Both the position numbers and the translations under genes were made by a program. A DNA stretch of 64,000 bases. Source: Prorocentrum cordatum (taxonomy: Eukaryota > Sar > Dinophyceae > Prorocentrales > Prorocentraceae). The notes beneath the pieces are model-generated. The model did not search any database. It saw only the letters and a program-made list of their open reading frames with translations, and had not been told where the DNA came from. The stretch is taken from assembly GCA_963575745.1 (NCBI GenBank), contig CAUYUJ010016717.1:1-64000 (forward strand), in the 5' to 3' direction. This document shows, one piece after another, positions 100 through 19,173 of the stretch; positions within the stretch are counted from its first letter, which is position 1; every line of letters begins with the position of its first letter.

Positions 100-100
<1 letters not shown>

Positions 101-222: not shown

Positions 223-263
223 CTCTCTCTCTCTCTCTCTCACTCTTTCTCTCTTTCTCTCTT
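223..263. repeat. CT-rich microsatellite
   Basis: CT dinucleotide run interrupted by A and TT. Confidence 0.9.
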
Positions 264-268
264 ATTGT

Positions 269-736
269 CGCAGGCGCAGGCGCAGAAACAAATGTATTGA
301 TGGATTGGGTTGGATGGATTGGATTGGGTGGGACAAGATGAGATGGGACAGTATGAGTTGGATAAGATAAGGTGGATTGGATTGGACAAGATGGAATGGC
401 TAAGTTAAGCTGGTTTGGATAAGAAAGCCCGCCCACGGCGCCGACAAAATTGAATTCATGGATTGGGCTGGATGGGATACCATGGATTGGATAAAAAATG
501 GGTTGGATTCGAAGGAACGGATTTGATAAGATAAGATGGATTAGACTGGCCCGCCGCAGGCGCAGAAACAAATGAATTGATGGAGTGGGTTGGGTGGATT
601 GGATTGGGTGGGATAAGATAAGATGGGACAGTATGGGTTAGATAAGATAATATGGATTGGATCGGTCAAGATGGATTGGATGATATCAGCTGGATTGGGT
701 AAGAAAGCCCGCTGCAAGCGCCGAACAAAATGAATT
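269..736. repeat. Two-copy direct repeat rich in GGATTGGATT
   Basis: About 190 bases starting near 269 (GCAGGCGCAGAAACAAATG) recur near 552 with scattered substitutions, ending in AAGAAAGCCCGC plus a GCGCCGA(A)CAAAAT tail both times. Inside each copy, GGATT/GGGTT and GATAAGATAAGATGG units repeat, so the block is also an imperfect minisatellite. No coding sign. Confidence 0.8.
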
Positions 737-1090
737 ATGAAATTAGCGACATGCGTTAGCGCCGGGACGCCCTGGACACCCCGGACACCCGGGACACCGC
801 CCGGCTCAACTGGGACACCTCCCGGCAACTGGCGGACGGGAAACGGACTTTCGCTCCTATTTCGGCCTAGCTACAGGAGGATCACGCGCAGCTTCGCCTC
901 GCCCGCACGCGCGGCACGAACAAGAAACCGAAACCGATTTCCCAGCGGGGGGTCTCCGTTTCACTGCGATCTCACCCCCCAAACTCCGATATGTGTGTAT
1001 ATATATACATATCAGAGTGAGGGGGCCGAACGGTCATTCACTGTCCCTGGGTGCGTGGCTGAAGTGGAATTCCGCGGTGCGGATTCTCGT

Positions 1091-1275
1091 TGTTGTTGTG
1101 TTTGTTGTTGTTGTTTGTTGTTGTTGTTGTTTGTTGTCGTCGTCCCACCCGCAACCCGCCCCGCGACCCACCCGCGACCCACCCCGCGACTCACCCCGCG
1201 ACCCACCCGCGACCCACCCGCGACCCACCCACGACCCACCCCGCGACCCACCCCGCGACCCACCCCGCAGTCTGA
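1091..1275. repeat. TTG microsatellite followed by CCACCCGCGACCCA minisatellite
   Basis: A TTG/TTGT tract (1091-1140) runs into about 130 bases of CGCGACCCACC-type units. Open frames through it encode only low-complexity Pro/Arg/Thr or Gly/Arg/Val and are not taken as genes. Confidence 0.9.
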
Positions 1276-1748
1276 AATGACTCTGGTAGGTCATAATCCA
1301 ATTCCATGTCGAAGGAATACGATATGGGGTGTGGATGGGTAAGATAGGAGAAGATCGATGTATCGGTCTTTCCAGCACATAGCGAATACCAAGTCAGGTA
1401 TCCGGGCAAATAGGGCGCGCGTGCCTTCAGCCATAAGGCAGCGACGCGCAGGCTATACTCCCGATTATCTGCAACATCTCCCAAAGAGCTACACTGAAAA
1501 AGTCGGGGGGGAAGAGACGGAGAGCGCAGCCGCGCAGTCGCTAGGCTCTCGGCAGGCGCGCAACTGTTTACAAAGAAAACAATACACGCAGTCTGGTCAA
1601 CCACCAGACTGAAGGGCGAGATTATTCGCCGGCGAGTTTCCTCGCAAAACTTTTCCACGCACGCGCAGGACAGCCCCCTTGATAGACAAGGGCTATCGGC
1701 CCGGCTGGAGGTGGGCCAAACAGGCTATCCCCCTCCGGGCAAAAGGTA
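1276..1748. other. Non-coding spacer, possible 3' end of the retroelement
   Basis: No recognisable gene. Contains one member of the GNRA hairpin family at 1632-1645, which suggests that retroelement sequence extends at least this far to the left. I looked for a long terminal repeat shared with the 19-20 kb region and saw none. Confidence 0.4.
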
Positions 1749-2607
1749 TCAAGGCAAAGAGCCTGAACCAAACTGAGCAGGCTCGTTGCCAAGCGCGAAG
1801 TATGGCTCGTTTCCGAGCAAGAAAAAGGGCGCCTCCACACTAGGCGCCCGTGCTGGCAAACTGGACCGCAGGGGCAACAAGGACAAACTAAAAATGATTC
1901 GACTTAGGTTTGGTTTTGTCCTCAAGGCCCCGTCTGCGGTCATGTCACTGGTGTCGCACCACTGCGCGTTATGCGCTATATCCCTGAGCTCACGTATCCA
2001 GCTGGTCTGTCCCGGCAAAGTACGTTCCGTCGGCATCTGGAGGTCTTTGCTGGATAATGGTTTATATACAGACCCAGCGTCTATCGTAAGGGATAATTTG
2101 ATAGCTAGGCCTCCAACTTCACGCATGTCTCGTAGTTGTCGTGGTGTAAGTGCCCCAGCCTTGAGCTCGTGGAGAATGATGAGCCTGGGATAGCATTCAT
2201 CAAGATTGCGTGCTGGACGACGGATTTGCCATGGGCGAGTTTCCTCGCCGTAATACGTTAGCCCCACGGATGCAGCAGCCCTTGGTTTCATCGCCCTCCT
2301 CCCCGGTGAATTTCCGGTACCTAGAGTCACTATGTATGTCTACTTCATTCGTCGGTTTCATCTGAGGGAAGGTGAAACGTTTCGGGCTGCTGATCAGCTT
2401 TCGCGTCACAGTATTCAGTCATCTGACTTGTAAGTTGGTGGGCTCTTGGATCTTCTGGAGAGATGCCACATGCGCCATGAGCCAGACTTGAGTGAGAAGG
2501 GCATAGGGGAGAGCTCCTCGCAGGCGAACGAACATGTCGGTGATGAGTTTGGTACCCTTGGCGTCTGCCGCTGCTCCCGTAAGTTCAGGATGTGTGTTAG
2601 GACGTAG
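1749..2607 (-). pseudogene. RT-RNase H connection and RNase H of the copia-type element (broken)
   Basis: This is the C-terminal part of pol; RNase H removes the RNA strand during reverse transcription. The connection carries GAAADAKGTK then MFVRLRGALPYAL, typical of dinoflagellate copia pol. RNase H follows with DIHSDSRYRKFTGEEGDE (first acidic residue), TIDAGSVYKPLSSKDL, and QWCDTSDMTADG, the copia tail usually ending ADALTK or ADGHTK. A TAA at about 2605-2607 and a TGA near 2429 interrupt it, and the frame shifts near 2230-2250, exactly where the hairpin at 2234-2249 sits. The last ~70 residues after the tail motif look like readthrough into non-coding sequence. Identification is firm for RNase H; the exact end is unclear. 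Confidence 0.75.
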
Positions 2608-5109
2608 TTATTTGATACATTCGTCCTGGTCCATGATCACATCCCCAAGTTCATTCTTCGTGTAGCGGACGGCGCAGTTGGTGTAAGAATGTGTGTTGAG
2701 CTTGCATTTACCAAACGCCTTTTCGACACGTTGTACATCGTCGACTACGTTTTTCTTTAGGCCTGTCATATTGATGTCGTCTACATGTTTTGCTGTTAAT
2801 AGGTCCTGGCTAAATTCAAATTCAAGATCGTAGCTTGTCGGTGCAAGGCCTATTGCTCGAGTGGTCGTGCGAAGCTTGAGGGCGAACGCTCTTGGGGCGC
2901 CCATTGTGCCAGTTCCTGGCTTCAGGCACCTGAGGCAGTATCGGCTTTCATCATAAGAAAAGAAGCCTGGTAGGGTGCGAAGCACCTGGGCACTTCCTGG
3001 TGGAAGGGCGAAGCAAAACATGCGAGTCTCCTCGCCAGTGGCATGAGCAAGTTCCTCATATGTCAGTCCTTTGAGGAACGCTTTGTCGATGTCCATAGAT
3101 GCTGAGATCCATTCTGGATGACACGCAGCTTCACTTGCCAGAAGCCTCTGGGACTGTCGGCGGGCAATTCCCGAGAAGGTTTCTACATCGAAAGCCTCCG
3201 TGTCCATAAATCCACGGAGGACAAGTCTAAGACGGATGGTTTTAACATTCTCGGTGCCTACTTTCACAAACTTCCACTTGTATACGTATCTGGATGTCAT
3301 GATGTTGGAAGCTTTTGACCGGTCATACATCTCAAAGCATCGGTTGCCCAGCCAAATCTTGAATTCGGTGTACAAGGCTTCACTAACCTCTTCGGGATGT
3401 GCTGCTATGTCGGCTTTGGTGAGTAGGTCGTCTTCCTTGACTACTACAGCACGTTTAGAAGCCGATGATACGTATACTCTCATCATTGCGACCATGTTTG
3501 GTTCGAGCTGTGCAAGTTGGGTCTGACCCAGCACGATCTTTGACATTTCTGGCGTAAAACATAGCTCGACATATGGGCCATGTTCATCACTGTCAAGAGA
3601 ATAGCCCTCGTCAGGTGTAGTCGAGCATAAAGAAACGAGACAGGGCTCTTGTTGTTCAGGCTCGTATCCGAGCACCTCCGACACAACGGTATCTTCCTCG
3701 TCCACTGATGCTGAGACCAAGACACATTGGTGGGGCAGCATGGTTTTTGGGACGCAGTAGGGACAGTCGTCGATAACCGTCGTGGGATGAAGGTCCATAC
3801 GCAACTCATCGTACCACTCCTCCATCATCATAGCCTCGATGTCGTGTTCCTCGCTTTCCTCGAAGATTGTCGACAGGCGACCTCCACTGCGTGATGAAGC
3901 ACCTGGGGTGCCTGGAAAAGGCCTGTCTCCAGGCTGGTCAGGTCCTTCACACGGTGTGTCCAAGTGTTGATGCTTGGCAAGGTCGTCATGAAACCCTAGG
4001 GAAGGAACTTGTGACGTCAGGCACTGGATGAGTCTGGAGCGAGTGCTACCAGTGATTTGAGAGATGTTCAGGCCGGTGCCTACACACTCATAGTAGTGGA
4101 AGGCTGGGTTATCATCGCTGCCGTAGTGGATCAGTGTAGACCTGGTGGCGTACTTAACTGCAGGTAGATTGAGCACGCTCTCGGCTAATCTCACGGCTAC
4201 TGCGCGCTCAACTCGGAAATAGTTTCGCACGAGATACTGTAGTGCTAGGTGTACGCGCGGGTGAAACTTGCTGTCGTCGGAACGATTGAGGTTTCCCTTG
4301 TAGTCTGGAATGTAGCCAAAGACTTTGGCAGGTTTCCCTGCGCCAAGGTGTGCCACATATGTAAGAACGGTTTGCATGGCCATGTTGTCCATGCCAAGTT
4401 CCCTGGTGAGAAGGCATTCAATGTACAGCGTGTGGCAAGCATCAGGATACATTACAACTACCTCACGCGATCCTGCCTCGACGACTACGTGTCCTCGTTC
4501 AGGCACGTTGCGGATCACAGGGCACGGGCCATTCCAGCGTCCACGGTCGTCCTTAGTGGCCATGGGTCGGTGATGATCGACCAAGTCCCCAGCTGAGTAT
4601 AGGCGAGAACCATCTGGGGCCGTCTTAGCCCTGAGGGCACGGTTCGTCCTCGCTACCGCCGCGGCTTGAGTTATTGCTTCCAGGCTGACTTCCCGCACGC
4701 GACGTTCGCGTTCGTGGCCTGACGTCTCGGGGCCCTTGGGGAAGTCGAGGGTGTCGAGGTCAGGAAGGAAAGAGGGCTGTCGCCCAGTGTGTGCTTGGTA
4801 CGGCGATGCCCCGTTGTAAAAGGTGAAAGCGTTAGTGACGAAGATGCCTTCGGCTAGTACTCTGGTACATACAATGGGGGTGTTATGTCTGTTCAGCTCT
4901 TCCTGAATCATGTAGTGGGTGCCTCTAAGAATGCCATTACGTGAATCGATCGAGGTCACGTGCTGGCCAGGCGCTCGGATACGCAGCGCCGTAACCTCAT
5001 TCGCCATCATGGCCTTGGCAGCTTCATTATTGAGGGCACCTTCTCCATCTGAATACAATACTTTGAAAGGGTCCATGGTAGGCGATCCAGCAGTGGTGGG
5101 AGGCGTCAA
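2608..5109 (-). pseudogene. Integrase core and copia-type reverse transcriptase (833 codons open)
   Basis: Residues near 18-30 (VLYSDGEGALN) give the second acidic residue of the integrase core, followed by SIDSRNGILRG where the catalytic Glu is expected but Asp seems to stand. A chromodomain-like or SH3-like stretch follows (GDLVDHHRPM, WNGPCPVI). A divergent linker reaches about residue 540. The RVT_2-type RT follows: YVYKWKF, SMDIDKAFLKG with the first catalytic Asp (about residue 672), and KHVDDINM for the YxDD box (about residue 773, base 2768-2791). Its N-terminus is artificial: the integrase core starts in another frame (5027-6664) and one frameshift near 5060 separates them. The open length is notable for a decayed copy. 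Confidence 0.85.
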
Positions 5110-6664
5110 GTATGGTGTCGCGTTCTCTGTCGGGAATTTCTTGTCCTGCTGCCAGGCGAATACATCGGTCCATAATGTGGAGTATGGTCCGCCCCTTGTA
5201 AAACATGAGATCTACTTCGCCTTCGTCGAGCCAATGTCCAGGGAGGCTTACGGGAGGAAGCGTAGAATTACCTGGGCGCTCCCATGCTCTACACTCCCGA
5301 CAGGTGTCGCAGATTTCTGCGATCACATTTAGTCGAACATTATCCAAACCCACCTTCTCTAGGATCAGCCTCAACTTGGGTTCCTTCGCATGATGCCACC
5401 GTAGGTGCAGTTTGCGGAGTTCCTTTTTGACTACATCAGGTTCATGACTACGGAGGTTTTGCAGACTGCGTTGGATGTCGAATCTCGCCCAGTCAGGCAG
5501 TCGTGGAGCCCCCGAGCCGGTCGAGGCAAGCGGGTTCCTCGTGGCTCTCCGCAGTCGGTCTCCTTCGTCAACTGCATCTGGCGGTGGAAGTGCGCCTTGT
5601 AAGCGACCACGGCGGGTCGCTACCTGCGGTGGTTCGCCCGAAGAAACGGGAGGCGCTTTTCCGCTCGAAGACGCGGAAGGCGTGTTTCCACGCTCGGGCG
5701 CGTCTCGCAGTATGTCATAACTGCTAGCGCCAGACAGATGCAGGATCAGCGTTCCCAAAGGCCTGGCGCGAGCGCCCTGACGGCCACCCGATGCCGAAGC
5801 TCGGCCCTCACCCGGCTTGGGTAAGGGTTTCCACCAAGCTGGCACAATGCGGCCCTCGGGGTCATGATCATCTGGGAATTTCAACGGCTCGGCAAACCGA
5901 CATTTGCCGGGCTCAGTGTCGAGGTGATTCTGAACATCCTTGCTTCTCGTAAGATCCCTCTGGCATGCAGGGCAAGGCCAGTATACAGAGATGGAATCAT
6001 GAAATTTACACTGTGTAGGATCTCTGTTGTGGCTAGGACTGTCCTTTCGGACGTTGTCGATACATGCTGGGCATGTAGCCGCTTTTGGGATGATACGGTC
6101 ACCGATGCGTCTCATACCCTCTCCTGGTTCAGCATGATCAGGGAGGTCGGCAGGATAAGCATGAGCAGTTCGTGCAGGCGCGTCTCCGCGCGCATTGTCA
6201 ATGGCTTTCGCCAGGTAGACGGCTTCCACAAAGGCAGACTGCAGTCGTCGAGTGTATTTTTGTGCCATGGAAAGCTCCTTGTTGCACGGCTGTGCATGCA
6301 CATGCTGACCGTTACAATTGAGTCGCTCAAAAGGTTTAAGAATTGCCTCGTCGTTGCTGGTGAGATCTGTCAGCTTCTTGATATAGTCACCAGCCGTGTC
6401 CTTAAAGCCCGTCGCACATTGGTCGATACGTGCGGTCGTAATGCGAGGTCGGCCGGCGAGTTCTTTCCATGGGGGAGTATCATCCACCCATGTCCCTGTG
6501 GGTTGTTCGCGTATAAACCACCTCCGTGCATTATCTTGTGCGACAGCTATTTTACCACAGTGAGTTATGTGTGGCAAATCTTCTTTATGGCGACTCGTAC
6601 ATAGCATACTACAAAGTAGTGGTCTACAGCTCGCTGCACCGAGGGATCTCCCAGGTCGACACAT
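5027..6664 (-). pseudogene. Methyltransferase-like tail, linker and integrase zinc-binding domain
   Basis: The first ~140 residues continue the methyltransferase-like module: FIREQPTGTW aligns with the EHPAGxxSW block of these elements, then DQCATGF and LNCNGQHVHAQPC. A linker follows with two Cys pairs near the middle (ATCPACIDNVR, YWPCPACQRDL). The integrase HHCC-type finger is visible as LHLRWHHAKEPKL, then ICDTCRECRAW. The integrase core begins with GEVDLMF (first Asp) and HIMDRC, and the frame is lost just after GPFQSIVF, where the next segment (2608-5109) takes over. Integrase inserts the cDNA into the host chromosome; here the split core means no function from this copy. Confidence 0.75.
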
Positions 6665-7527
6665 GTGGTCTTGTCTAAATTGCCTCCTGAGGAGAGACCT
6701 CTTGAGAAGGCAAGCGCTGGAATGCCACCCTCACCTCCACACAGCTCCAACATATCCACGCAATTGTTGTTGCCATAGCATAGAGTAGCCACTATGCTGT
6801 ATATGTCGGCGTGTGTGTCGGGCATAGATGTGGGGAGGGTAGGGAACAGGCCACCTTTCCTCGTCAGAGTATCCTGAATAACCGTACCGGTATCCAGGTT
6901 AATCCTTACACGTCGGATAACATCGGACCATTTCGGTCCCCCTTCGTCGGTCGTCACATAATGATGTGCGTTGTGATCCGTACGTGCATAAGTATTTAAG
7001 TATACCAGCACGTGTCCATGCGTAGCGTTGCCTTTCCCCAGGATCCTATCGTTGAGGTGGCGAATAAGCGTGATGCGTGTCTGTGCTCTCCATTCGGCAT
7101 GTCGCACCGTTTGGCCGCACCAATCCAAAACATGTTGTGGTATCGCCTGTTTGCAAGTACGTGCCCATAGCTGAGAGCTAATCGGTATTGATGTGGCTCC
7201 CTGCATAGATGTACCACTTGGTGTATTGTCTTGCATATTAAATCTAATACCGAAATGACACAACCGCATCCGTACTACCGTCAACTTAAGATGTTCCAGA
7301 GTATCACGTACTGGAGACAACTTCCAAGCGTATCCTGGGGGGCCAAACGCTATGATTATCATGCGGAGCTTCCTTGCCTTCGTCCGAAGGTTCTGAATGC
7401 GCGACCAGTGTGAGGCCACTCTTTTACCTGGGGGCCTTACGTACCAGTCACCCAGAGTACTGACCCATATTAGAGCGTAGTCCCCACTGATCACTGCACC
7501 CAGATACTCTGTGCCCACAGCCGTCAT
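6565..7527 (-). pseudogene. Methyltransferase-like module of the copia-type element
   Basis: A 320-residue open stretch. Near residue 265 it shows DMLELCGGEGGIPALAF, which resembles the SAM-binding motif I of class I methyltransferases, followed by VDLGDPSVQRAVDHYF, a plausible motif II acidic turn and helix. Upstream is WVSTLGDWYVRPPGK and a His-rich stretch (HGHVLVYLNTYARTDHNAHH). Dinoflagellate copia polyproteins that I recall carry such a module between protease and integrase, continued here by the next frame (5027-6664). The enzyme class is not provable: no PCQ-type cytosine motif or DPPY-type adenine motif is evident. It could be a degenerate, non-catalytic fold. Confidence 0.5.
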
Positions 7528-7648
7528 GAGCTCGTTGTGGGAAATGCGGTAACAGGTATATCCCCGGGTGCGGAGGTCAGCGCAAGCTTCTCTCGTATCT
7601 TCGATAACGAAAGCTCTTTTATTATGGCAGGTTGCCCCGCTGTCCTTG

Positions 7649-8203
7649 TTACCCCCTGGCCTCTCGGCTATCAGGCAAGGCGACGAGGGGGCAGCGTCGC
7701 CCTGCCATCTTCAAGATAAAGAAGATGCGCTTGCCACATCTGCCAGCATCTGCCCTCAAACCCTGGAGCTCTGCGCTGCAACGCGCGGTGGCCTCAAAGG
7801 CGGATTGCTCCGCAAACGTGGCCAGCATGGACGGGTTATCCGTCAGCTGCCTCAGGAGGCCCTTCGACCTTGCGTCGTTGACCGTCTGCAGCTCATGATT
7901 CGTGTACCTCATCACTATCTTCCTGCGTGTTCTCGCAGCGTCCATGGGTACAACTCCGCCATGCTGGGCCAGTGTCCTGGCTACGAAGCAATCGAACGTC
8001 TCCAGATCATCGATGCTGTCGCCTCTCATCGTCGCCTCGGCGAGTATCGCGAGCAGCCCCTGGGGCAGATTTCCCTGCAATGGTTGGCGCTCTTGCGCGG
8101 GGGGTGGCTCGCCCGTCAGCACCGTCTGGAACGACGTCGTACTCGTGCTTGAGGCGGGTTGCCCCGCGGCTCCGAATCGATCACACCTGATTGACAGATG
8201 TCC
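7649..8203 (-). pseudogene. Linker between protease and methyltransferase-like module
   Basis: Open frame 7649-8122 encodes about 157 residues with no recognised domain, including a helical segment (ATFAEQSAFEATARC). It follows the protease C-terminus, which ends in TAA at 8204-8206, and GHLSIRC just after that stop matches the GHLxxx block that normally follows the protease in these elements. A separate longer hairpin (7-bp stem GGCGACG/CGTCGCC) lies at about 7680-7702 inside it. Confidence 0.45.
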
Positions 8204-9878
8204 TTATGGCAACTTAGTTGTACGCATGATCTCGGAGCCCTCGGGGAGTTCCATCTTGACCTGTCCCTTTCCAGGGAATATCAGCTTCTCCTGGCCTCGC
8301 TCGAGCACAGTAATGGCGCGCTTGTCCTGCGTACTGTCGAGGCCCAGGATAGCCGGCAGGTCCTTGCCGCAGCCCGACACAACATTAGTCTTGTACGAGT
8401 CGAGCTGGGTCGAGCCCTGGTACTCACAGGCAATGCTGAGAAGTGCCCGCGGTATCGGCTGGGGCCGACCCTTCGCCTACCCCGTTTATGTTCAATCGAG
8501 AACGGGGCTCAAACGTACAAGGGCGATTATGAGCCTCAACAGCCTGGACGAATTTGCGGCTCGCGTTCTCTCCCAGTATATTGATCTTCGAGCCCACATC
8601 TATGAGGATCGAATTTCCACCATCCTCCAGAAACGTCCTGCTCGGCTGCTTGATGCGCACCGTCTCTGATGCGCCGCCTGCGCTGTCTGGCGGGTTTCCC
8701 CGCATCTCGGTCGCACCTCCTGGCGGGTTTCCCCGCATCTCGGTCGTGCCTCCTGGCGGGTTCCCCCGCGTCGTGATGGCACTTGGCCTTCCTGCGGCCA
8801 TGCGTGCCAGGTCAGTGTACTGGACGTACGACACGTCAAGGGCGTGAACGCCCTGTTCCTCCCGCCACATAGCATACTCATCGCGTATGCTGGTATACTG
8901 TTCACGAGTGGTGCGTCGTGGCAGCGTCAGGTATGAATGAAGGGCAATGTCCTGTAATCCCTCATTCGTAAGGTGATCCCTGTGCTGCAACCATTCGTCG
9001 AACTCAGTATTCGTGGCTGAGAGTTCGATGGCCCTGGCTGCTGTTGCCGCTGTCGCCACTGAAGAAACTGAGAGGTCAAACGACTCGCTCTCAGGATTGT
9101 CGGCGTCCAGCATGAACGTGGTGCGCGCGTTGTCCATCTGGGCCTGGAAGTGGCGAACACGCAGCTCACGCAGCTGTTCAGGGTCCAGTGGCAGCTCGGC
9201 CCCACCCCCGCCCTGGGGTGACATCGGAGGAGCCACCTGCCCGATTCCAGGCTCGTGCTGAGTAGGAGGGATCGGCACGGGTGGGGTATTGGGCAGGTTC
9301 CCCTGCTGAGGCGCTGTCATCGGGAAACAAATGTCGAAGTATCCCGTCTCCATCGGCGCCCTCACCTCCTCCGGCGGTTTCCCCCGCTGCTGGGGCAATG
9401 CTGCCTGCCTGTCCAGCATGCTGGCCATCATGTCCTCCACCGTGCTCCTCAGCTCCCGCAGCTCCCTCGCTGCCTGTTCAGGAGCCTGAGTGACGGAGCC
9501 GGTCCATGGGAACGACGACGCTATGATGCCTGGCGCTCGGCAGATCGCACATACTGGTTGCTGAGGATCTCCTTCTCGCCGGTTCGCAACGTGGCCCACC
9601 ACGTTCGACTTCCAGCACTCCTCGTGGAACAGATGGTTGCACCTCAAACGGTAGATGCTCTCCCTCGGCATAAACTCCTCGAGGCATACCGCACAGGTGT
9701 CTTCCATCCCAGTATAGATCTCCACGTCTGCCGCCCTAGGACACACTCGCCTCTGCCGTTCCAGAACTGTTTCAGAGCCCAGGAAGGCAGCTGGAGGATC
9801 ACCCGCGGGCGTCTGTGCCTCCGGCGCTGCGGCGGCCACTGCTGGGGCAGCTGCCGCTGCGGAGGCTGCGGCCGACAC
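8204..9878 (-). pseudogene. RING-H2 finger plus retropepsin-like protease segment
   Basis: The 8424-9878 frame (484 residues) starts with an Ala-rich stretch, then a complete C3H2C3 RING-H2 finger: C62, C65, C80, H82, H85, C88, C110, C113, all eight ligands in correct spacing. RING-H2 domains are usually E3 ubiquitin ligases. A Pro/Gln-rich middle contains three tandem GNPPG-type peptides encoded by hairpins at 8690-8769. Residues ~420-484 are aspartic-protease-like: SILIDVGSKINILG in place of the D-T/S-G triad, then NINGVGEG. After a frameshift near 8424 the protease ends with LPAILGLDSTQDKRAI and KLIFPGKGQVKMELPEGSE, then TAA. Asp is kept but Thr/Ser is Val, so catalytic status is doubtful. 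Confidence 0.75.
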
Positions 9879-10990
9879 AGCTGGCGATTTCCTCGCATGG
9901 GTGAGCCCCTGCTCCTCATGACCTCAAGTGCTGCTGCGCGTGCTTGGTCACGTGCACTCTGCACCGCCTGCCGGCGTCTGAAACACGCCTGTTGAGTGCG
10001 GTACGTCTGCCTGATGTAATCTGGCACACCCCTACTGCCTGATGATATCGAATGGGCAGTAGGCTGGACGGCCACATCTGGCATCGTCGGCGCAGGCATG
10101 AATGCCATGTGCGGGTGCATGGACTGGTCGCTGCAGCGCACATTCGTGAGGCTATGAAACTGATCCACCGTCTCGCGAACAAATCTGTTCGGGACTCTGG
10201 ACCCGCCTGGGTACAGTGGCGGATCCATTGGAGCAGGTGCTGGCCTCTGGCCTTGGGCCATGCTCGGATGAACATTGAAGGCCGGGATAAAGGCTCGTTG
10301 CCGAGCAGGGTCGGAAAGATTCGGACCCTCCGGCTCCCAAGACCAGGCTGGCCTCCACCTCTGACCGCTCGGGCGGGGCAGGTTGTGGCTCTGCGCCTGT
10401 TGCATCGCGGCCGCCGCCCGTGTGCGGTAGTCATCAGGCACTCCAGTAGCGATGTTTTGGTCGGCTAGCGGTCGGTGCTGCACCAGAGTGCCAGGCAGGT
10501 TCCCCCGCAAACTTGATGGCGTGCCCGGTGGCATCATGCCCAAAAGAGCTGTACCATGATCAGCTCTGGCCGCAGCAATTCGCTCCATGAGAGTGCCATT
10601 CGGGGCAGAACGCCCAGGAGTCCCGAATGGAGACTGCACTGGCATTGACGCTACTGGTGTCATGCCCCTCGGCGTGTGCATGCTATGCGATGGGCTCCCT
10701 GGCGTCTGCTCGAATCGGGCTGGCTCTCCGAAGATGCGGCCAACTGTTTGCGGGTCTCCCTGCGGCTCGGGCATATCGCTCCTGATTCCGTTGACGGGCA
10801 GGTTTCCCTGCACAGCCTGGCGGTTGCGCGTCACCATCGCGGACACAGCCCCCTGACCTGCGGCCCAGGGGTCCTGTTGGTAAAATCTGTCCGCTAGCTG
10901 CTCCACCTGCTCAGGATTCAGAGTCGCCGCGAAGATCTGAGGTGCTGAGGACCGGACAAGATATGGCACTAGGCCCTTGGCTTGGAGCAC
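9644..10990 (-). pseudogene. Pro/Gln-rich gag-pol linker
   Basis: A 448-residue open stretch of low-complexity, Pro/Gln/Arg/Ala-rich sequence with no recognised fold. It overlaps the Tpt1-like frame by 80 bases at its start. Near 9900 the true reading most likely shifts into the RING frame, because MRGNRQLC is followed there by the Ala-rich start of 8424-9878. Several GNLP-type peptides mark hairpins (10293, 10495, 10798). It probably acts as a spacer between Tpt1-like and RING domains. Confidence 0.5.
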
Positions 10991-12131
10991 GGCTTGGAGC
11001 CGCGCTCCCCGCCTCGCCCTCGTTGATCATGAGGATCTGGTGGGTCTCGGGCTGGTTTCCCAGCGTTGTTGGGTGGTAGTGGTCTCCCAACTCTCTCTGG
11101 CAGCAAGCCGTAGGAGGCTCATCATCCCGCCAGAGAGTCATCCTACGACCAATACTGGCAATGCCCAACGTCCTCCATTTGCTTGGCGCCGTCATCTCGG
11201 CAGTGGAACAGCGTGCACGGCGACTGCCCAGGTAGTGTGGGTTCCGCCACTGTTTACCTGTGCAGATCTCCTCCACATAGTTGATATAGTACGGCTCGGT
11301 GACGCCGTTGACCCCTTCAGATAGCAACGCGCCGTTGTCGGGCCAGCAGAACTCGATTCCGTCCGTCAAGGCCTGGCGCCAGTCAATCGAGATGATGATC
11401 TCGGAATCAGGGCCCCATCCACTCTGCGCGTCACGACGCTGAAGCGTTGAAACAAAATGGATGCGTGAACGACCAGTTCCTTTCTTCTTGGTGTTGTGCT
11501 CTCTGCGGCAGGAGAAGCCTATCCCCATGATGCCCTCGAAGGCTGCCCACCGTGCGCCGCGAATGGCGACATCGGGGTATGGGGCCGGCCCCCCGGCAGG
11601 GTTGTCGCGCAGTGCGATGTACTTGTACAACGACCAAGGGGCCTTGAGCGTCCACGAGTGCCCCTGCGAGGCACGGATGAACAAGTCGGCTGTGCCAGAA
11701 TCTCGCATCAAGACCTTGAACTGTAACCGCTGCTTCTCCTCTCCGTCCGACTCGCGGACACGGACGATCACCATCATGATTGCAGCCATCTGGTCGACCG
11801 TCCTACCGTAGAAGGTCTCGGCGATGACCTTGGCATTATCGCACTTCGGGTAGTGCCCGTCGCGCCGCATGCCGTCGCCCCAGGGGAACTCGTGCACGAG
11901 CTCGCGAAGGTTGATCCATCCATCGTGGTCGTCGAACGTCCTCAGCCTCCACACTGGATTGTTCGATCTGTCGGGCGCGCGCCTGCAGATTTTGCTCAGG
12001 TACTTACTGAGCTGCTTGAGCTTGTAGTTCGTGCTAGGAATGATGTTCGTTTGTCGGCAGCTCGCCATAAGTGCCTCATCATCCGAACGCATCGGTGGAT
12101 GCTTCCGTAGAGCGCGTCGATCGTTGATCAA
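10911..12131 (-). pseudogene. Tpt1/KptA-like RNA 2'-phosphotransferase domain in the retroelement
   Basis: 406 residues open. Residues ~39-290 follow the whole KptA/Tpt1 fold: LSKYLSKICRRAP (family SxxLSxxLRHxP), DDHDGWINLREL (DxxGWxxVxxL), IRASQGHSW (family IRAxQGHS; Arg153), YPDVAIRGARWAAF (family xxHGTxxxxW), GRSRIHFVST (family RxHIHF), EIIISIDWRQALTDGIEF, DNGALLSEGVNGVTEPYY (family SxNxVxLxxGxxGxxxPxY). The family removes an internal 2'-phosphate from RNA using NAD+, as at the end of fungal and plant tRNA splicing. Two catalytic positions look changed: the RH pair is R50-R51, and HGT is RGA; the last SGxR motif is weak (SGWGPD). Arg153 remains. So the fold is clear but activity is doubtful. 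C-terminal ~110 residues are linker. Confidence 0.75.
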
Positions 12132-12139
12132 CTCCTGGC

Positions 12140-13610
12140 TCCCGCTCGTGAAAGAGGTATCGCCTATGTGGCGCAGCTTATCTTCTGGCGGGCCCCCCCG
12201 CTATGGAGCCTCTGCCGCTGACGAGGCTGCAGCTCCTGATGATGAAGATGCTGCGGCTGCAGCGCCTGGCGGGTTTCCCCGCGGCGTCTCTCGGCTGGCG
12301 CCGCTCCTGATCTTAGGCGCCCAGGTGCCCCGAGGCAGAACGCCCTCCTCGGACGCCTTGGAGCGCGTCGCCACTGGCGAGGCCGGCGCAGGGGTATACC
12401 CTGCACGCTCGAATGCCTTGGCCTTGCTGGCGGTGGAGCCACTCCGGCTAGGCCGACGCCTGTGGATCTCCAGGGAGTCCTTAGGCTGTTGCCTGGGGTC
12501 AGGTCTCCGTGCGGGCATTGCTCGAATCGATGACATCGGCACTTCTAAAAGGTGCCTTCCCATCTGCACATCGAGCCCGAGCTCCTCTGAGCGGGTAGAA
12601 GGATTATTCTGTCTCTCGCCCGAAAGCGTCCTATATTCACGAGTCTCACTTTTAGCCTTTGGGGTCGTCGGTGGCTTCTTTGCTTCGGCTTGTGACTCCA
12701 GCAGCATTCGGCGAGTTGCCTCGCGGTTGCGCTCTTCTGCCTACCGCTTGCGCTCTGCCTCTGCTGCGACTCGTTGAACCTCCTGCTCGTCGTCGCTCGT
12801 AATCTCGTACGTTCTAGCCTGACTGGCGACACCAGGCGGGTTTCCCCGCGGAGATCGAGTCTCCTGAGCAGGAGGATCGATGAGGCGCATGGCCTCGAGA
12901 CGGCTATTGACCGCATCAATTTCCTCCTGGGCCATGGGCGCAAGAGGGGGGCGACCCTCCTTTGCAGGAGTGCGGCCCCTGTTAGGACTTACAACGTCAC
13001 TGAGGCCGACAGGGCAGCCAGGTCTGTTCCTGAAGCTCCTGCGAGCACGGACCGCAGGCCGCGTTGGGTCTGCAGCGGCGGCGCTCCTCGATGATGGCTC
13101 TGATCTGTCTCCGCACTGCCTCTTTATCGGGACGTCGAATGTTCGTCGCGAGCTGGTAGCCACCCCGTATGGACCTGCCTTGGGCGCCCCTTTTCAAATC
13201 GGATTGCCCTGTCCAAGCGCAGAGTGCTCGCCCGTTTTGCGCCTAGGGTCATTGCAGGCGAGCAACTGACCTCCCCGTCGAGCAGCATGCTCTGATGGAG
13301 CTGCCCGCCGCCATTCACGCGGGGGCCGTGCTCGGGGGTGCGGATCGCCCCTAAGACGCGGATGTGAGCGAGACCTCCTGGCCTGTTCATCGGGCGATGC
13401 TGCTGACGTAGCCCGGGCAGGAGCTGTCGTGGTTTCCTGAGTAGGCATAGGCAGCACATCCTGGACAAGCAGGTCCCCCTGCTGACTGGAGTCAGGCATG
13501 ATGGGCTCTTGTGCGGACGGTTGTGCGTCGGACTCGTCTGGGTCGAAGTCCAGCTCCTCGCCTTCGCCATTGACGTCCATCATGAGTATGGTGGTCCCGT
13601 CCTCGCACAA
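12140..13610 (-). pseudogene. Linker region with several overlapping frames
   Basis: No recognised domain. Successive minus-strand frames at 12201-12707, 12545-12943, 12741-13163 and 13194-13610 encode Ala/Arg/Glu/Ser-rich sequence, some probably coiled coil (QEEIDAVNSRLEAMRL; EVQRVAAEAERKR), with frame changes between them. Hairpins at 12188, 12269, 12711, 12836 and 13469 fall here, giving RGNPPG-type peptides in some frames. The upstream end has an acidic patch (EELDFDPDESDAQ). Read as one decayed spacer between the acidic segment and the Tpt1-like domain. Confidence 0.45.
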
Positions 13611-13644
13611 TCCAGAGTCGGCGGACAGCAGATTCTGGGGTAAA

Positions 13645-14991
13645 TCATTGCCGTAGTCGATCCCCTCCTCCGCCTCCTCCTCCTCCTCCCTCCTCCTCCT
13701 CCTCCTCCCTCCTCCTCCCTCCTCCTCCTCCTCCTCCTCCTCCTCCTCCTCCTCCTCCGCCTCCGCCTCCTCCTCGCTCTCGCCGCCCCCCCCCTCGCGT
13801 GCGACCCTGCCCCCCCCGAGGTGGGCCCGCGAGGCCGCGGCCGGCTTTCTCGGCCGGTGCGTCGCCGACTACCTGGCGCTGCCAGAGACGGCGCGCCGCC
13901 CCCCGCGCGCGGCCTGCGCGCGCGGCCCCTCGAGCGGCCCCTCTGACCAGGCCTCCGCGGCGCGCCGGCCATGGGGCGCGGCCGGCGGGCGGAGCACGTG
14001 CGGGGATCGGGGGCGATCGGGCCGGATTGCCAATGACCAGGGTCATTGGCCCAGTCGGGACAGGCAGGCTTCCCTGCTGTAGAGGCGTCTGAGCACCGCC
14101 AGGCTGTCCCGGCGTCGGCGGCACGGCGGACGGACCAGGCTCGTCGCCGAGCACGGCGCGCGCCTCACGCTGAGCATAGTCATAGGAGAAATGCCCGATG
14201 ATGTTGCGCATGGCCGCATGGTTGGGCCGTGGCCCCATCGCCTGGAGACCCCATCCTGGCGGAGGAGGCGCCTGTTCACGCATCGCGATAGCCCTCTGCA
14301 GGGTTTGGCGCCAGCGCCCCTTTGCATACCATACGCGCCGCTGCACGTCGTCAGGGAGCACGCTGTCGATGAGAGCGAAGGCCGCCAGCAGCAAGTCCGA
14401 GTCGTCACAGACATCGGAGTCTTGCAGCATCAGGTGGCCGCTCTCAACGCTCTGTTGACTATCAGGATACTCTTCAGCCTGAGCGGCATGCATCTGCATG
14501 AGAGTCTGCAGCACCGCGCATGGTCCGCACTCGCCCGGCGCGAGCATACCAGGTGGCTCGTGGGGATTGCCTGGCGCGCCCACGGTGAAGGCCTGAGCCT
14601 CCAGTTCCATCAATTCGCAATAGTTCGGCGGATGCACTGGAGTAGGCCTGTCCCCAGGCAAGGGGTCAGATTGCTGTCGAAGGTTGCACTCGACCTCCGA
14701 GGGTGAGGCCTCGACAGTGACGTCCTCGTCGCTGCTCTCGAAGGCCATGATGTTGCCTGGATTGCCGAACATCCAGTCGAAGAAGGAAACGGGCTGGTTT
14801 CCCAGCGCTCCGTTCTCCACAGGCGTGAGCTCGATGGCTCCGACGTTGAACCTGCGGAGGTACTCGAGGTAGTGCGCGTAGTGCCCGTGGCCGCGCGCCT
14901 CGATCGTCCAGAGTGTCCATGTTGCTGACCCACGTGAAGAATATCTGTTCACTTGAGCCCAGATGGATTTCGGACGCGCTGCCCTTTCCAT
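13645..14991 (-). pseudogene. Unrecognised acidic segment downstream of the gag zinc knuckle
   Basis: 448 residues open. The first ~300 residues are ordinary-looking: IEARGHGHYAHYLEYLRRF, FFDWMFGNPGN, FESSDEDVTVEASPSEVE, GECGPCAVLQTLMQMH, HFSYDYAQREARAVLG. I recognise no family; the CGPC stretch is suggestive of nothing certain. The last ~130 residues are Arg/Ala/Gly low complexity generated by a GC-rich block and a CCT tract (13661-13785) and are probably not part of the original protein. Position between gag and Tpt1-like domain suggests a polyprotein linker. Confidence 0.4.
13661..13785. repeat. CCT/CCTCCG microsatellite
   Basis: Trinucleotide CCT run with CCG variants. It interrupts the decayed polyprotein and gives an artefactual poly-Gly/Glu/Arg stretch. 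Confidence 0.9.
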
Positions 14992-15367
14992 TCCCTTTGA
15001 CTGGACCGTCCTTCACAACATGATATGTGCTGTCACGTCCATGGCACTTCAAGACCTGGCCGTCTCTACCTCGCGGGTTCCCCCGCCTACCGGCACCTTT
15101 GCCCGAGGTTTCCCTGCGGCCTTTTCCACGACCTTTTCCCCCGAAGAATATCTCATCATACTGATAATCTGAAAGCCTCTGGAAAAAAAAAACCGCGATG
15201 CCTCGTCCTATCAACCTTCGGTGACCCCGTTTGCCTTTGCCTTTACATTTGAAGCTCCTCCTTATCTTCCTCCTAACATTACGCACTGGTTTTCGTGTAG
15301 ACCTCCTTCTCCTATGCTTAGCTTGTTGTACTAACCAAAATCCGCCGATCCGGCGTGTGAGTTTCAA
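14992..15367 (-). pseudogene. C-terminal gag: basic region and decayed zinc knuckle
   Basis: Reads GFWLVQQAKHRRRRS then KPVRNVRRKIRRSFKCKG, a basic RNA-binding stretch, then LSDYQYDEIFFGGKGRGKGR, GAGRRGNPRGRDGQ and KCHGRDSTYHVVKDGP. This matches the order of dinoflagellate copia gag, where a CCHC zinc knuckle follows GRRGNPxGxDGQ. Here only the first Cys and the His remain: the second Cys position is Arg and the last is Gly. The upstream half of gag lies at 17347-18109, separated by the insertion at about 15345-17345; the break falls between AEHL and FWLVQQAK. Confidence 0.75.
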
Positions 15368-17345
15368 GGAGTCTCAGCTACAGCCTCGAGGCTGAGCCTC
15401 AGCCTCTGGGGGGGTTGCCGGCCGGGGTGGCTCTGCCGGGGAAGGGGGGTGGGGTGGGGTGGGGTGGGGGGGGGGGGGGCGAGTTTCCGGCGGATGCGTT
15501 TTTTGACACCCCTCACAAGGATCGTTGCCTCCGAGGGGGTTCCGAACTCGAGCGCCACCCCTCCCGCACCAAGAGGCTCCGAGGAGGCCTCCATGAGGCC
15601 CCAAGGGGCGCAGCAGAGGCCCCCAAGAAGCCCCGAGAGGCTCCCTAGAGACCCCAAGAGGCTCTCTAGGGGCCCCAAGAGGCCCAAGAGGCCCCCAAGA
15701 AGCCCCAAGAGGCGCCCAAGAGGCCCCCAGAAGTCCCAGCCAACCACGAGATCCCAACCAGCATCCATGAGGCCTCTGACCCACCACCCACGCACGGTGG
15801 CGGGATAGGCCGACGGCCACTGGATCCGCCGCCCCCTGTGGTCTTGCCACAGGGGTGCACGGCGTGCTGGATGTTTCAGGTTTTGGTTTTGGTTCTTTTT
15901 CTAAAAGAACTCCCCAGTGGGCTTCGGCCCGTCCCGCCGGCCACCCGCAAGTTTCCGAAAATCCATCTGTCAATGCCTTTGTTGCCCCAACTTGGCCCAA
16001 GATGGCCTCCAAGACGGCCAAGATGGCCCAAGATGGCCTCCAAGATGCTTCCAAGACGGCCAAGATGGCCTCCAAGACGGGTAAGATGGCTCCAAGATGC
16101 ACCCAAGACGGCCCAAGATGGCCTCAAGATGGTCTAAGACGGCCCAAAAGACGGCCTCCAAGACGCCCTCCAGGAAGGCCCGAATAGGCCCTCCAAGACG
16201 GCCCAAGAGCCCCAACAGCACCCAAGAGGCCTCCAAGATGGCCTGACGGCCCAAGAGGCCCCCAAGAAGGCCCCAAGAGGGCTGACGGCCTCCAAGACGC
16301 CCAAGATGGCCTCCAAGACGGCCAAGATGGCCTCCAAGATGCGACGGTAAGATGGCTCCAAGATGCACCCAAGACGGTCCAAGATGGCCTCAAGATGGTC
16401 TAAGACGGCCCAAAAGGCCGGCAAAAGGCCTCCAAGACGGCCCAAGAGCCCTCCAAGACGCCCTCCAGGAAGGCCCGAATAGGTTAAAATCATGTATTTT
16501 CCTTAGGTTTTTGAAGGATTTTGGCATGTTCTTCTTTTCAGCTCTCCGACGGCCCCAGACGGCCCATGAGGTCCCCATCGCCCCAACAGCACCCAAGAGG
16601 CCTCCAAGGTGGCCCCATGACGGCCCAAGAGGCCCCCAAGAAGAGGCCTCCAAGAGGTTTTCCAGGAGGGCCCGAAGAGGCCAAACTCATTGATTTTCCT
16701 TAGGTATTTGAAGTATTTGGAAATTTGCGTCTTCTCGGCATTCCGACGGCTCAAGACGGCCCAAGAGGCCCCCAAGATCGCCCAAGAGGCCCCCAAGAGG
16801 GCCCCATGACGGCCCAAGTGGCCTCCAAGTTGGCCCCAAAAGAGCCCCAAGACGGCCCAAGAGGCCTCCAACACGCCCAAGATGGCCTCCAAGACGCCCA
16901 AGATGACCTCCAAGACGGCCCCGAAGCGCCCCGAGAGGGTCCCCCGCTGGCCCAGAAAAGCCCCCAAGACGGCTCCCGACGGCGTCAGACGTGTCAGGAA
17001 CCCACCAAGAGGGCCGAAGTTGGCTCGAAGCTGGCCCAAGACGGCCCAATGGGCCCCCAAGAGGGCCTCCACGAAGGAGGCAGATGACCTTCAAGATGCC
17101 CATCTGTTCACCCAAGGCTTTCCAAACCGATTCGGGGAACACATGGTCCGATGGCTTGGCAGGTCTGGCCTCAACGTTCGGCCACATAGGTGCTTCCAAA
17201 AAGGCAGGGGGCGGCGGTGATTCGCCGTAGGCGTCTTCGATAAATGCCGAGTGAGAGGAGGGGAAGGAAAAAGAGAGGAAGGACGAGGGCGAAGAAGGAT
17301 CACATCAGTCGGAGCGCCCCAGATCGGCGGCACTGGCCGAGGGCC
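15345..17345 (+). mobile_element. ~2-kb CCAAGATGGCC-type repeat inserted in gag (copy A)
   Basis: Long array of CCAAGATGGCCTCCAAGACGGCC / CCCCAAGAGGCC-type units from ~15560 to ~17070, preceded by a G-rich tract (15440-15480) and the block CTCACAAGGATCGTTGCCTCCGA-like (about 15506-15530) that recurs near 46736 and 50130. Related body sequence to copies B, C and D, but their CCCACCAGCCC terminal repeats were not seen here. Short inverted repeats CCGCCGATC (15342-15350) and GATCGGCGG (about 17321-17329) lie near the junctions. All long frames through it are low complexity (poly Trp/Ser/Gly/Leu or Pro/Lys/Arg) and not genes. Borders are placed from where gag homology stops and resumes. Confidence 0.7.
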
Positions 17346-17346
17346 A

Positions 17347-18109
17347 CTACAATAGATGCTCGGCGCGCTGACTATCACCTTCCATTTGCATGTTATCTGA
17401 CCAGTCTAATGGTTCCATGCCGTCTGACGATGTCGTGTCGGTGTCGGTGCCTGAACCGAAGTCGTCGTTTCCTAGGTAGGTGGACACACCGTCGTTTAGG
17501 GGGTTCGCTTCTCCCCGTAGAGAGTGGCGAGGCTGAGGTTCTCTAGGAGGAGGGCTGGTTGCCCAGCTTGGTTGCGATCGATCCCCTGCTGATAGGCCAA
17601 TATATTCGCCAGAATCATCGGCCCAGATGTTTGTGGGCCCGTTGCCAGGCTGAGCTTCAGAGGTTAAAGTAGTATAGAAATTTCCACTGCCAGTTCCCCT
17701 TCCCCTTCCAAACACGGATCCTATGTTGCCAGGACAGTTCTGACAAGTGGCCTACCGAGCGCATTCTCTCACACAGTTCTTCATAGTGTTGTTGTGTTCG
17801 GGGCATTTGGTGGTTGAGTGGCTGTAAGAGTTGCGTGGCTCGCTGTTTGCCAACGCCTAGGGCGCGGAATAGGATAGTCGTAAGTAGTTGGAAATTGGGA
17901 AGGTCATAGCCCACTGACTGTGCCTCAAGACGGGCCATTTCGAACCGGGTAAGGGTTGCATCGAGGCGGCGGCGCACTGAACTTCTCGAAAGATTCAGTA
18001 AAGAGCGAAACCATATTGCCAGCCGCAGTGCGCGCCATCTCACGGCCCCAATCGGATGCGCGACAGCAGTCATCGCACTCCCCGTTGCAAGCACGCTGGG
18101 GCCACTCAT
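17347..18109 (-). pseudogene. Gag (capsid-like part) of the copia-type element
   Basis: Frame 17657-18109 holds LDATLTRFEMARLEAQ, LLTTILFRALGVGKQRATQL, LQPLNHQMPRTQQHYEEL and RSVGHLSE, the conserved helical core of dinoflagellate copia gag. A frameshift near 17690 leads into 17347-17715, which carries FGRGRGTGSGNFYT, IWADDSGEYIGL and the acidic GSGTDTDTTSSDGMEPLDW. The frame ends AEHLL then TAG at the insertion border. Gag forms the virus-like particle in which reverse transcription takes place. Hairpins occur at 17554 and 17637. Good family match; broken by one frameshift and the 2-kb insertion. Confidence 0.8.
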
Positions 18110-18426
18110 GACGGCTCAGGCGCGCAGAACTGCATTCGAAATCATACTGTTCCAAGAACTGTGTGATAATAAACGACCGCAACGGAGCGATGCCGACCAG
18201 AACGACATATGCCAACAATACACACAGACGGTGAAGACTTGTTTTTCGCCAAAGCTTTTCCTGCACACTCAGCGATGCCAACAAACTGTTCATTTCCAGC
18301 TGGATTGCGCAAGATGTTCGGATGATGCCCGATGTGGCGCGCGTGTCGGATCGCTCGGAGACCTGGTGTCCACCAACACGTACCGATCATAGTTCGCCAT
18401 ATTCTCCTCCGCAATAGTGAGTTCAT
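18030..18426 (-). pseudogene. RapZ C-terminal-like domain upstream of gag
   Basis: One frame (18142-18426) gives CIVGICRSGRHRSVAVVYY, matching the VAIGCTGGxHRSV loop of the RapZ C-terminal domain, a nucleotide/RNA-binding fold. The preceding frame (18290-18994) ends YDRYVLVDTRSPSDPTRA, matching the family's DxRxLxDP...G start; the following frame (17925-18293) gives ARLSRHEWPQRACNGECDDC, corresponding to the HRxL segment plus a Cys cluster. Three frames are needed, so two frameshifts. RapZ in bacteria binds the small RNA GlmZ; the role in a retroelement is unknown. A phosphatase-like C-x5-R loop is an alternative reading of the same motif. Confidence 0.6.
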
Positions 18427-18994
18427 CTATGATGGCGTTGGCGTCGTGCCCTCCGGTGGTCACATCATGACTGGAGCGATGGTGACAGCGAATGTTCTCT
18501 CTCAGTGTCGACGAGCCCGCGCACCTCGGGTTCTTCTCTAAGTTCTCCAACCCCGGCGCGATCACTGCAAACTTCGAGCCCTGTGGTTCGGGGCGAGCAC
18601 CAGCGCCAGCAGCGGCGGCAGCGACCCGCGCGTCCTCGTCGTCACTGGAGTGATCGACGGGCGTAGGCGCACACGTGATCCCGTGGTCCACGCAGTGATC
18701 GACGACGGCACGCGGCGCGGCGCGGCCAGCGGGGGCCGGGCAACTGCTTGGATACGATATGCACAACGGGCGAATGGAATCCGCGACGCGCGTAGGATCA
18801 ATCTGATCAGGGCGAATGATAAGAATACATGAGCGTGCACAACGTAACATGTCTACCTCGCCTGCCCGACTCAGGAAAGCGCGACCATTAGCAAGATCCT
18901 TCACGAGACCGAAGGGAGCCCGCGCAGGAATATATAACAAGACAGGAACCTGATCGGAATCTTTCACCTGATGTGACTCGAGACACCCGCTCAC
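18427..18994 (-). pseudogene. N-terminal region before the RapZ-like domain
   Basis: Open frame 18290-18994 begins MSGCLESHQVKDSDQV and runs into the RapZ-like start. It contains APTPVDHSSDDEDARV and an Ala-rich linker. No domain recognised in this part. No ribosome or trans-splice context could be judged. Confidence 0.4.
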
Positions 18995-19173
18995 GGCGCC
19001 ACGAGAACGGGAACTCTTGTTACCTGTCGTATCACTCCCTGCCTGTCCACCTATGCCGCTGTACGTCTTACGCTGTCAGTGGACGCGCTTGGGATAGAAA
19101 CCCAACTTCTCGAATATATCCGCTGCGATAGGAGTCCAAGGTTTACCGCGGCAACAAGAATTACAAACCTCGT

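Follow-up and report, generated by a model that had tools for sequence, protein, structure and literature searches.

Dispersed tetraloop hairpins in Copia-type retrotransposons of Prorocentrum cordatum are candidate family-specific RNA recognition signals

How retrotransposons with long terminal repeats (LTRs) pick their own RNA in a crowded nucleus, and how co-resident families avoid cross-packaging, is an open question. The known packaging signals of retroviruses and Ty1 are concentrated near the 5' end of the RNA, and the dispersed packaging motifs of viruses are degenerate, so that binding data helped to reveal them. Hairpins of similar form occur in lambdoid phages: boxB, of ~15 nt, has a 5-bp stem and a GNRA-type loop, is read by the arginine-rich N peptide, serves antitermination, and is present in one or two copies with a pentaloop. 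Rickettsia palindromic elements are many short palindromes that insert within protein-coding sequence. Here we describe a 64,000-nt stretch of the genome of the dinoflagellate Prorocentrum cordatum (contig CAUYUJ010016717.1, positions 1 to 64,000; "the window"; 60.1% GC). Its minus strand carries a degraded copy of a Copia-type LTR retrotransposon, and the RNA of this element contains some 40 hairpins, one per ~350-400 nt, from behind a Gag-like open reading frame (ORF), across linkers and pol, as far as the non-coding 3' end. The hairpins are under selection as RNA: they are specific to the RNA strand, pair in a compensatory manner and are conserved. Two families of the genome carry them, and the families differ in loop class.

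Dispersed stem-loops with a common coat-protein motif are a described route of RNA packaging, and excerpts of the 2018 review that sets it out add that Gag-like proteins may work in a comparable way (PMC6281560). The packaging signals of single-stranded RNA viruses (MS2, satellite tobacco necrosis virus, enteroviruses, hepatitis B pregenome) are, like the algal hairpins, many short stem-loops of the genomic RNA with a common loop motif (parts of PMC6281560, PMC3593212 and PMC7793301). The algal hairpins differ in that they are near-perfect, number ~40 and are visible from the sequence alone; their carrier is an LTR retrotransposon and their reader is putative. Retroviral and Ty1 signals share the setting, being cis-acting RNA structures in an LTR element, there read by Gag (portions of PMC8396678 and PMC8096270), whereas the algal element repeats its signal over most of the RNA. 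BoxB resembles the algal hairpins in length, stem and GNRA-type loop; it differs in role, copy number and loop, and homology is not implied. Unlike Rickettsia palindromic elements, the algal hairpins, at 14-15 nt, arose by substitution at alignable coding sites. Other dinoflagellate Copia retrotransposons share the RVT_2 polymerase, but the proteins of 64 relatives hold at most weak hairpin traces.

Both strands of the whole window were searched for the frame GCNNG-GNRA-CNNGC (GCNNGGNRACNNGC), with no pairing required of the inner stem positions. The minus strand, which is the sense strand of the element, held 30 sites, all within 1632-17650. The plus strand held a single, unpaired site at 38498, and none inside the element. 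Although the search left them free, the inner bases pair at 29 of the 30 sites: 25 are fully Watson-Crick, four have one G-U pair and one, at 10750, is mismatched. The loops were GAAA (12), GCAA (7), GGAA (4), GAGA (4), GGGA (2) and GCGA (1), and a C directly follows the stem on its 3' side at 26 of the 30 sites. A frame-free search of the 64 kb for perfect Watson-Crick stems of 5-6 bp with a GNRA loop found 28 on the minus strand, all within 1632-17567, and one on the plus strand, at 63394, with a different stem. The frame was matched by 25 of the 28, and a G-C closing pair was likewise present in 25. An earlier, sequence-only reading had counted 24 perfect stems, 23 of them in the frame, and had noticed none outside the element; the counts were real and slightly too low.

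Chance explains few of these sites. Dinucleotide shuffles of the element (n = 300) gave 0.39 frame sites and 0.06 paired ones, and Markov expectations were 0.36 and 0.05 (order 2) or 0.39 and 0.04 (order 3), in keeping with the earlier estimate of fewer than one. When the 3' arms were permuted among the 30 sites, a mean of 8.3 and a maximum of 17 paired in 20,000 trials, versus 29 observed; the stem bases are indeed variable yet complementary, as had been claimed. Among 23 distinct rows, 99.1% of cells were paired versus 77.1% after shuffling, 24 cells had changed on both sides, and the covariation score was 0.550 versus 0.093, with the qualification that the frame itself dictates three of the five pairs, which are hence uninformative. 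Tetraloops alone were in excess: 57 five-bp stems were found where 17.9 were expected, versus 25-31 for loops of 3 or 5-8 bases where 18-21 were expected. About nine further sites lie one or two steps off the frame, with a different loop, a closing pair that is G-U or A-U, or a single mismatch. Specifically, the stem is kept with a different loop at 14064, 12188, 11584, 7968 and 3660, and the closing pair is G-U at 8065. In 1000-18500, scanned at E up to 1, no Rfam family exceeded its gathering score; a single sub-threshold match lay on the plus strand at 12325-12397.

Related copies, hereafter family 1 together with the window, carry the same hairpins. A pol search of the source genome (4.13 Gb, 21,875 contigs) scored 52 of 12,730 first-look candidates, comprising the window and 51 loci that were 82-86% identical to it in protein. 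Thirty loci from this search and eight from a second one contained 380 sense frame sites, of which 349 were paired, and no antisense site in 224,643 bases. Once the locus of the window and two doubly sampled copies were set aside, 35 other loci remained, with 351 sense sites (6-12 per locus), 322 paired and none antisense; 28 of the 29 unpaired sites were one recurring sequence, corresponding to the window site at 1781. Of the outcomes named beforehand as adverse, neither an equal density on the opposite strand nor absence from related copies was observed. The antisense count of the element was zero, and the hairpins were present in 35 of 35 loci. The sister copies L036 (9.8 kb) and L035 (9.0 kb) had 27 frame sites, all paired, and 22 frame sites, 21 paired, respectively, with no antisense site in either. 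The window copy looks partly decayed, as at least one sister copy has GNRA at four of the five sites with another loop, and the stem at 9374 is intact in both.

The hairpins are also conserved relative to their surroundings. Across 36 loci, the mean major-allele frequency was 0.990 in 12 hairpins versus 0.939 in the 60-nt flanks. Identity among three copies was 0.93-0.97 in hairpins versus 0.73-0.86 in flanks, a comparison that favours hairpins because a site was included when two or more of these copies had a hairpin there. Folding in context gave the family-1 hairpins a mean stem probability of 0.66 in the window (n = 27) and 0.81 in L036 (n = 27), versus 0.51 (n = 13) and 0.57 (n = 7) for other GC-rich 5-bp tetraloop stems. 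In the whole genome, all occurrences pooled, the frame was present 225,229 times and the reversed pattern 149,592 times, an excess that fits a repeat family.

We further evaluated the contribution of the encoded proteins by shuffling codons within ORFs such that protein and codon usage were kept (1000 rounds each), counting hairpins with G-N-N-A loops. The four longest ORFs per sequence were considered and hairpin-free ones were skipped, leaving eight. The pol ORF of a further copy, L038, had nine hairpins versus a mean of 0.17 after shuffling, the 2400-aa ORF of L036 had 23 versus 1.58, and a 2306-aa ORF of the second family had 18 versus 0.43. The five smaller ORFs gave 2 versus 0.03, 1 versus 0.04, 2 versus 0.04, 5 versus 0.09 and 4 versus 0.04. 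Judged by eye from the ORFs, all three codon phases occur and one predominates. Strand specificity, the kept loop class and compensatory stems together show that this is a selected RNA element. The proposal that the hairpins act at the RNA level is thus strongly supported: they occur on the sense strand only, keep pairing and loop class, and are conserved relative to flanks and to synonymous change.

The second family was represented by an element at 2045383-2061821 of the 3.56-Mb contig C1, flanked by 293-bp LTRs that are 98.6% identical. It encodes Tpt1, RING and RVT_2 domains and a zinc knuckle (E 0.0022, below the curated cut-off). Over 16.7 kb it has the same stem frame with 28 GNYA and four GNRA sense sites, 32 of 32 paired (30 Watson-Crick), and one antisense site, which is unpaired. 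Its loops are mostly GCCA and GTCA. The trailing C is no rule in family 2, being present at 7 of the 28 GNYA and 2 of the 4 GNRA sites. Among the matches listed for GCGGGNNNNCCCGC on contig C1, this element formed the sole dense cluster. Five further family-2 loci, 96-97% identical, had 35 sites on the sense strand, each fully Watson-Crick, and no antisense site. At 2057279-2057373 of C1 (5279-5373 of the extracted locus L003), an Ala/Pro-rich repeat of the family-2 element is simultaneously a series of overlapping GCGGC palindromes.

The two families were aligned with their proteins as a guide (483 of 1002 and 699 of 1060 positions identical), which allowed 10 hairpins from a family-1 copy, one of them off-frame, to be mapped. 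At four of these, family 2 has five Watson-Crick pairs at the exact homologous place, in a different stem that has changed through compensatory substitutions. The family-1 hairpin GCAGG-GAAA-CCTGC (4328..4341) corresponds to a GCGGG/CCCGC stem. In the other three the loop also changes from GNRA to GNYA: GCTCG/CGAGC (3660..3673), which carries the altered loop GATA in the window and GAGA in other family-1 loci, corresponds to GCAAG-GCCA-CTTGC; GCGAG-GAAA-CTCGC (2235..2248) to GCGTG-GCCA-CACGC; and GCGCG-GAGA-CGCGC (6178..6191) to ACGCA/TGCGT. Starting from 14 mapped family-2 sites, the sites common to family 1 were the same four. This comparison indicates that hairpin positions turn over by substitution. 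At GCGAG-GAGA-CTCGC (3022..3035), in the reverse transcriptase domain, the hairpin is completed by a codon for Thr in family 1, where family 2 and 10 of the 14 relatives shown have Glu.

The remaining hairpins, all on the minus strand, are given here as read 5' to 3' in the element RNA. The most 5' are GCCTG-GCAA-CGGGC (17637..17650), with one G-U pair both here and in L036, and GCTGG-GCAA-CCAGC (17554..17567), identical in L036. Frame sites compared with the sister copies were GCGGG-GGAA-CCCGC (15073..15086), GCTGG-GAAA-CCAGC (14793..14806 and 11051..11064), GCCTG-GGGA-CAGGC (14646..14659), GCTCG-GCGA-CGAGC (14139..14152), GCAGG-GGGA-CCTGC (13469..13482), GCGAG-GCAA-CTCGC (12711..12724), GCGGG-GAAA-CCCGC (12269..12282), GCAGG-GAAA-CCTGC (10798..10811), GCTCG-GCAA-CGAGC (10293..10306), GCAGG-GGAA-CCTGC (9293..9306), GCGGG-GCAA-CCCGC (8154..8167) and GCGGG-GCAA-CCTGC, with a G-U pair (7627..7640). 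A second GCGGG-GAAA-CCCGC, at 12836..12849, is GCGAG/CTCGC in the sister copies, a compensatory pair. The altered loops GCAGG-GAAG-CCTGC (14064..14077) and GCGGG-GGGG-CCCGC (12188..12201) are GAAA in both sister copies; GCCGG-GGGG-CCGGC (11584..11597) has GAGA in L036 and GAGA with a broken stem in L035; and the GACA loop of GCCAG-GACA-CTGGC (7968..7981) recurs in both. The mismatched frame site (10750..10763) is Watson-Crick in L035. GCGGG-GGAA-CCTGC (10495..10508), with a G-U pair, is Watson-Crick in both sister copies, the G-U closing pair at 8065..8078 is G-C in both, and the broken hairpin at 9374..9387 is an intact GCAGG-GAAA-CCTGC in both. The frame-free stem search added GCGGA-GCAA-TCCGC (7800..7813), with an A-U closing pair. 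The hairpin-like GCATG-GACA-CGTGC (7008..7021), with one G-U pair, is GCACG-GAAA-CGTGC in L036.

A 33-nt tandem repeat (8690-8769) has one hairpin per unit, with three units in the window and two in L035 and L036: GCGGG-GGAA-CCCGC in unit 1 (8756..8769), which is missing from the two sister copies, and GCGGG-GAAA-CCCGC in units 2 (8723..8736) and 3 (8690..8703), both compared with the sister copies. Towards the 3' end, GCGTG-GAAA-CACGC (5680..5693), GCCTG-GAGA-CAGGC (3921..3934), GCTCG-GAAA-CGAGC (1805..1818, downstream of pol) and GCGAG-GAAA-CTCGC (1632..1645, downstream of pol and the most 3' site) are frame sites that were compared with other copies, and GCTTG-GCAA-CGAGC (1781..1794), with a G-U pair, is mismatched in most of them.

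The carrier is a dinoflagellate Copia-type LTR retrotransposon with Gag, Tpt1, RING and integrase/reverse transcriptase/RNase H parts. A Pfam scan (E up to 0.01, except where noted) identified the RVT_2 polymerase, a Tpt1/KptA domain and a RING finger on the minus strand; RVT_2, on which the assignment to Copia is based, is present in both families. The pol ORF (2611..5211) spans the integrase part and the reverse transcriptase, as judged from PF07727 in the overlapping ORF 2608-5109 and from relatives. The integrase reading at ~5030-5211 falls in two frames in the window copy and in long open frames in other copies. The Tpt1/KptA RNA 2'-phosphotransferase-like domain lies at 10911..12131 (PF01885, E 1.2e-15) and the ORF with the RING finger at 8424..9878 (PF17123 and PF13639). 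The combination of these two domains in a retrotransposon was found in two families of one genome. The sequence-only reading was correct about both domains; binding of the hairpins by either, which it had put forward for the Tpt1-like domain, is without support, and its other candidate, a RapZ-like domain (6568-7710), matched no Pfam entry even at E up to 5. The Gag-like ORF (17660..18115) had no Pfam match of its own and resembles, by eye, part of the family-2 zinc-knuckle ORF. An Arg/Lys-rich, nucleocapsid-like region (14669..15373) was recognised by eye and likewise had no Pfam match. All of these features are on the minus strand.

Minisatellite-like repeats at ~15374-17100, with 11/21/32-nt CCAAGAGGCC units readable as LGRLGG peptides, set the Gag-like ORF apart from the remaining element, and 15087-17553 is free of frame hairpins. 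The stretch is probably a nested insertion, given that similar repeats are also present near 36.5 kb and 50.2 kb of the window. No LTRs were found within 1-20000 of the window. Elsewhere in the window, the product of ORF 20355-21737 (minus strand) may resemble a PIF1-like helicase, to judge by eye from a GDFLQL motif.

We favour, at a probability of roughly one half (0.52), the reading that the hairpins, dispersed and specific to each family, are signals for recognition or packaging, and that an RNA-binding protein encoded by the element, probably Gag, reads them. Specifically, we infer a protein reader, Gag as that reader and packaging as the effect. The ~40 cognate hairpins of the form GCNNG-GNRA-CNNGC(C) would serve the genomic RNA as an address tag in many copies. 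The element itself would encode the RNA-binding protein that contacts each hairpin at its loop and closing pair, most likely with the basic/zinc-knuckle part of Gag, and multivalent binding would allow the element to recognise, condense and package its own RNA. With a loop class of its own in each family (GNRA in family 1, mainly GNYA in family 2), families sharing a nucleus would not package each other. The G-C closing pair in 25 of 28 stems and the use in family 2 of GNYA, which is not a GNRA loop, would fit recognition rather than mere stability, and the difference in loop class between families suggests a self-recognition tag. The Arg/Lys-rich region at 14669..15373 is a candidate reader, and a plausible one in family 2 is the basic stretch that, by eye, adjoins the zinc knuckle in its ORF.

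Several observations weigh against this reading. The Gag-like ORF of the window contains no strict hairpin, in correction of the earlier placing of some in gag, and the most 5' hairpins come after it. Hairpins spread through pol and beyond, so packaging is not singled out. Folding in context gave family 2 a mean stem probability of 0.45 (n = 30), versus 0.53 (n = 29) for control stems. Of the 10 mapped family-1 sites, 6 lack a hairpin counterpart at the corresponding position of family 2. The notion of one loop class per family is drawn from two families, of which the second includes four GNRA sites. Hairpin traces in relatives are weak at the peptide level. In public protein data, 64 relatives were found at E 0.001 among 8000 candidates scored; without the trailing C, GNRA-compatible peptide traces numbered 24 versus 10-15 in nine mispaired controls, and GNYA-compatible traces 18 versus 8-14. 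With the trailing C there were 10 versus 4-8 in controls, and the antisense pattern gave 4. A 29% identical relative (L001, 5.5 kb) from a scan of genome contigs had no frame hairpin. A 41-43% identical one (L050) had neither a frame hairpin nor any 5-bp tetraloop stem in the 1.5 kb sampled, which is too short for this absence to carry strength. L001 (NYVR01000130.1) encodes a Copia-type pol akin to those of the eukaryotic elements described here, on a contig filed under a Planctomycetota metagenome-assembled genome, where it is probably contamination. Scans of viral contigs with the pol ORF, the relatives' alignments or the Tpt1 ORF found no relative, and a protein search with ORF 9647-11026 gave no hit at E 0.001 in the 8000 candidates scored. 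Among the open-access titles and abstract openings surveyed, none mentions such hairpins for dinoflagellate or other retrotransposons, and the words "hairpin" and "retrotranspos-" are absent from the main text of the P. cordatum genome paper (PMC10666404).

The evidence for an RNA-level role would fit equally well with selected protein-binding sites that serve another step, such as export from the nucleus, control of translation, stabilisation against decay or the recruitment of Tpt1/RING or a host factor, and the unusual RNA-related Tpt1 domain in both families is in line with this. We nevertheless regard such a role as rather unlikely: ~40 copies along the RNA exceed the usual needs of export or translation, and a family-specific loop class suggests an element-encoded reader. 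A protein-free architecture, in which GNRA loops dock into receptors and so compact or dimerise the RNA for reverse transcription, would draw on the frequent docking of such loops into helices and on the predicted folding of the family-1 stems in context. It is improbable given that family 2 has mainly GCCA and GTCA loops, with GNRA at just 4 of its 32 frame sites. Still less probable is a role or by-product at the DNA level, either as single-stranded hairpins in cDNA or as palindromes that template switching perfects while the RNA is reverse-transcribed. Template-switch correction of near-palindromes could yield perfect stems, but it is not expected to hold one loop class on one strand, homologous sites stay paired with new stem sequences, and the excess is limited to tetraloop stems.

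Two further explanations are very improbable. A peptide motif repeated in linkers, [RLQP]-G-[ND]-x-P (AGPPA in family 2), might be encoded by palindromes by chance, and most family-1 sites are, by eye, in one codon phase, reading x-R-G-N-x-P. Yet all three phases occur, sites are also found beyond pol, the inner stem bases pair at 29 of 30 sites, and synonymous shuffling, with proteins unchanged, removes nearly all hairpins; the shuffles rule out a peptide motif as the sole cause. The suggestion of a self-inserting mini-palindrome like the Rickettsia elements finds an echo in the many similar short in-frame palindromes within genes and in the one 33-nt tandem expansion at 8690-8769. However, relatives mostly align without gaps: 14 of 15 do at site 3022 (GEKER versus GEETR), 23 of 31 at 4328 (AGKTP versus AGKPA) and most at 2235, and homologous places differ between families by substitutions. 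At alignable coding sites, then, the hairpins arose by substitution, and the mostly ungapped alignments contradict insertion there. At poorly alignable linker sites, such as 3921 and 5680, alignment gaps occur and an insertion origin is possible. A slippery-site function, considered because some hairpins contain GGGAAAC, was dropped because the loops vary.

We tentatively propose that LTR retrotransposons in one dinoflagellate nucleus carry a genome-length multivalent hairpin address code of dozens of cognate hairpins, whose family-specific loop class co-evolves with the element's reader and insulates co-resident families. If this is correct, each family would have its own RNA self-recognition, insulated from the families with which it shares a nucleus. 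The elements would be a natural and unusually clean case of dispersed packaging signals with Gag-like proteins. At site 3022, with Thr in place of Glu, RNA structure apparently overrides protein sequence in the reverse transcriptase. The element makes RNA self-recognition testable from sequence: each RNA has ~40 sites, the two families differ in loop class, and the genome contains many copies.

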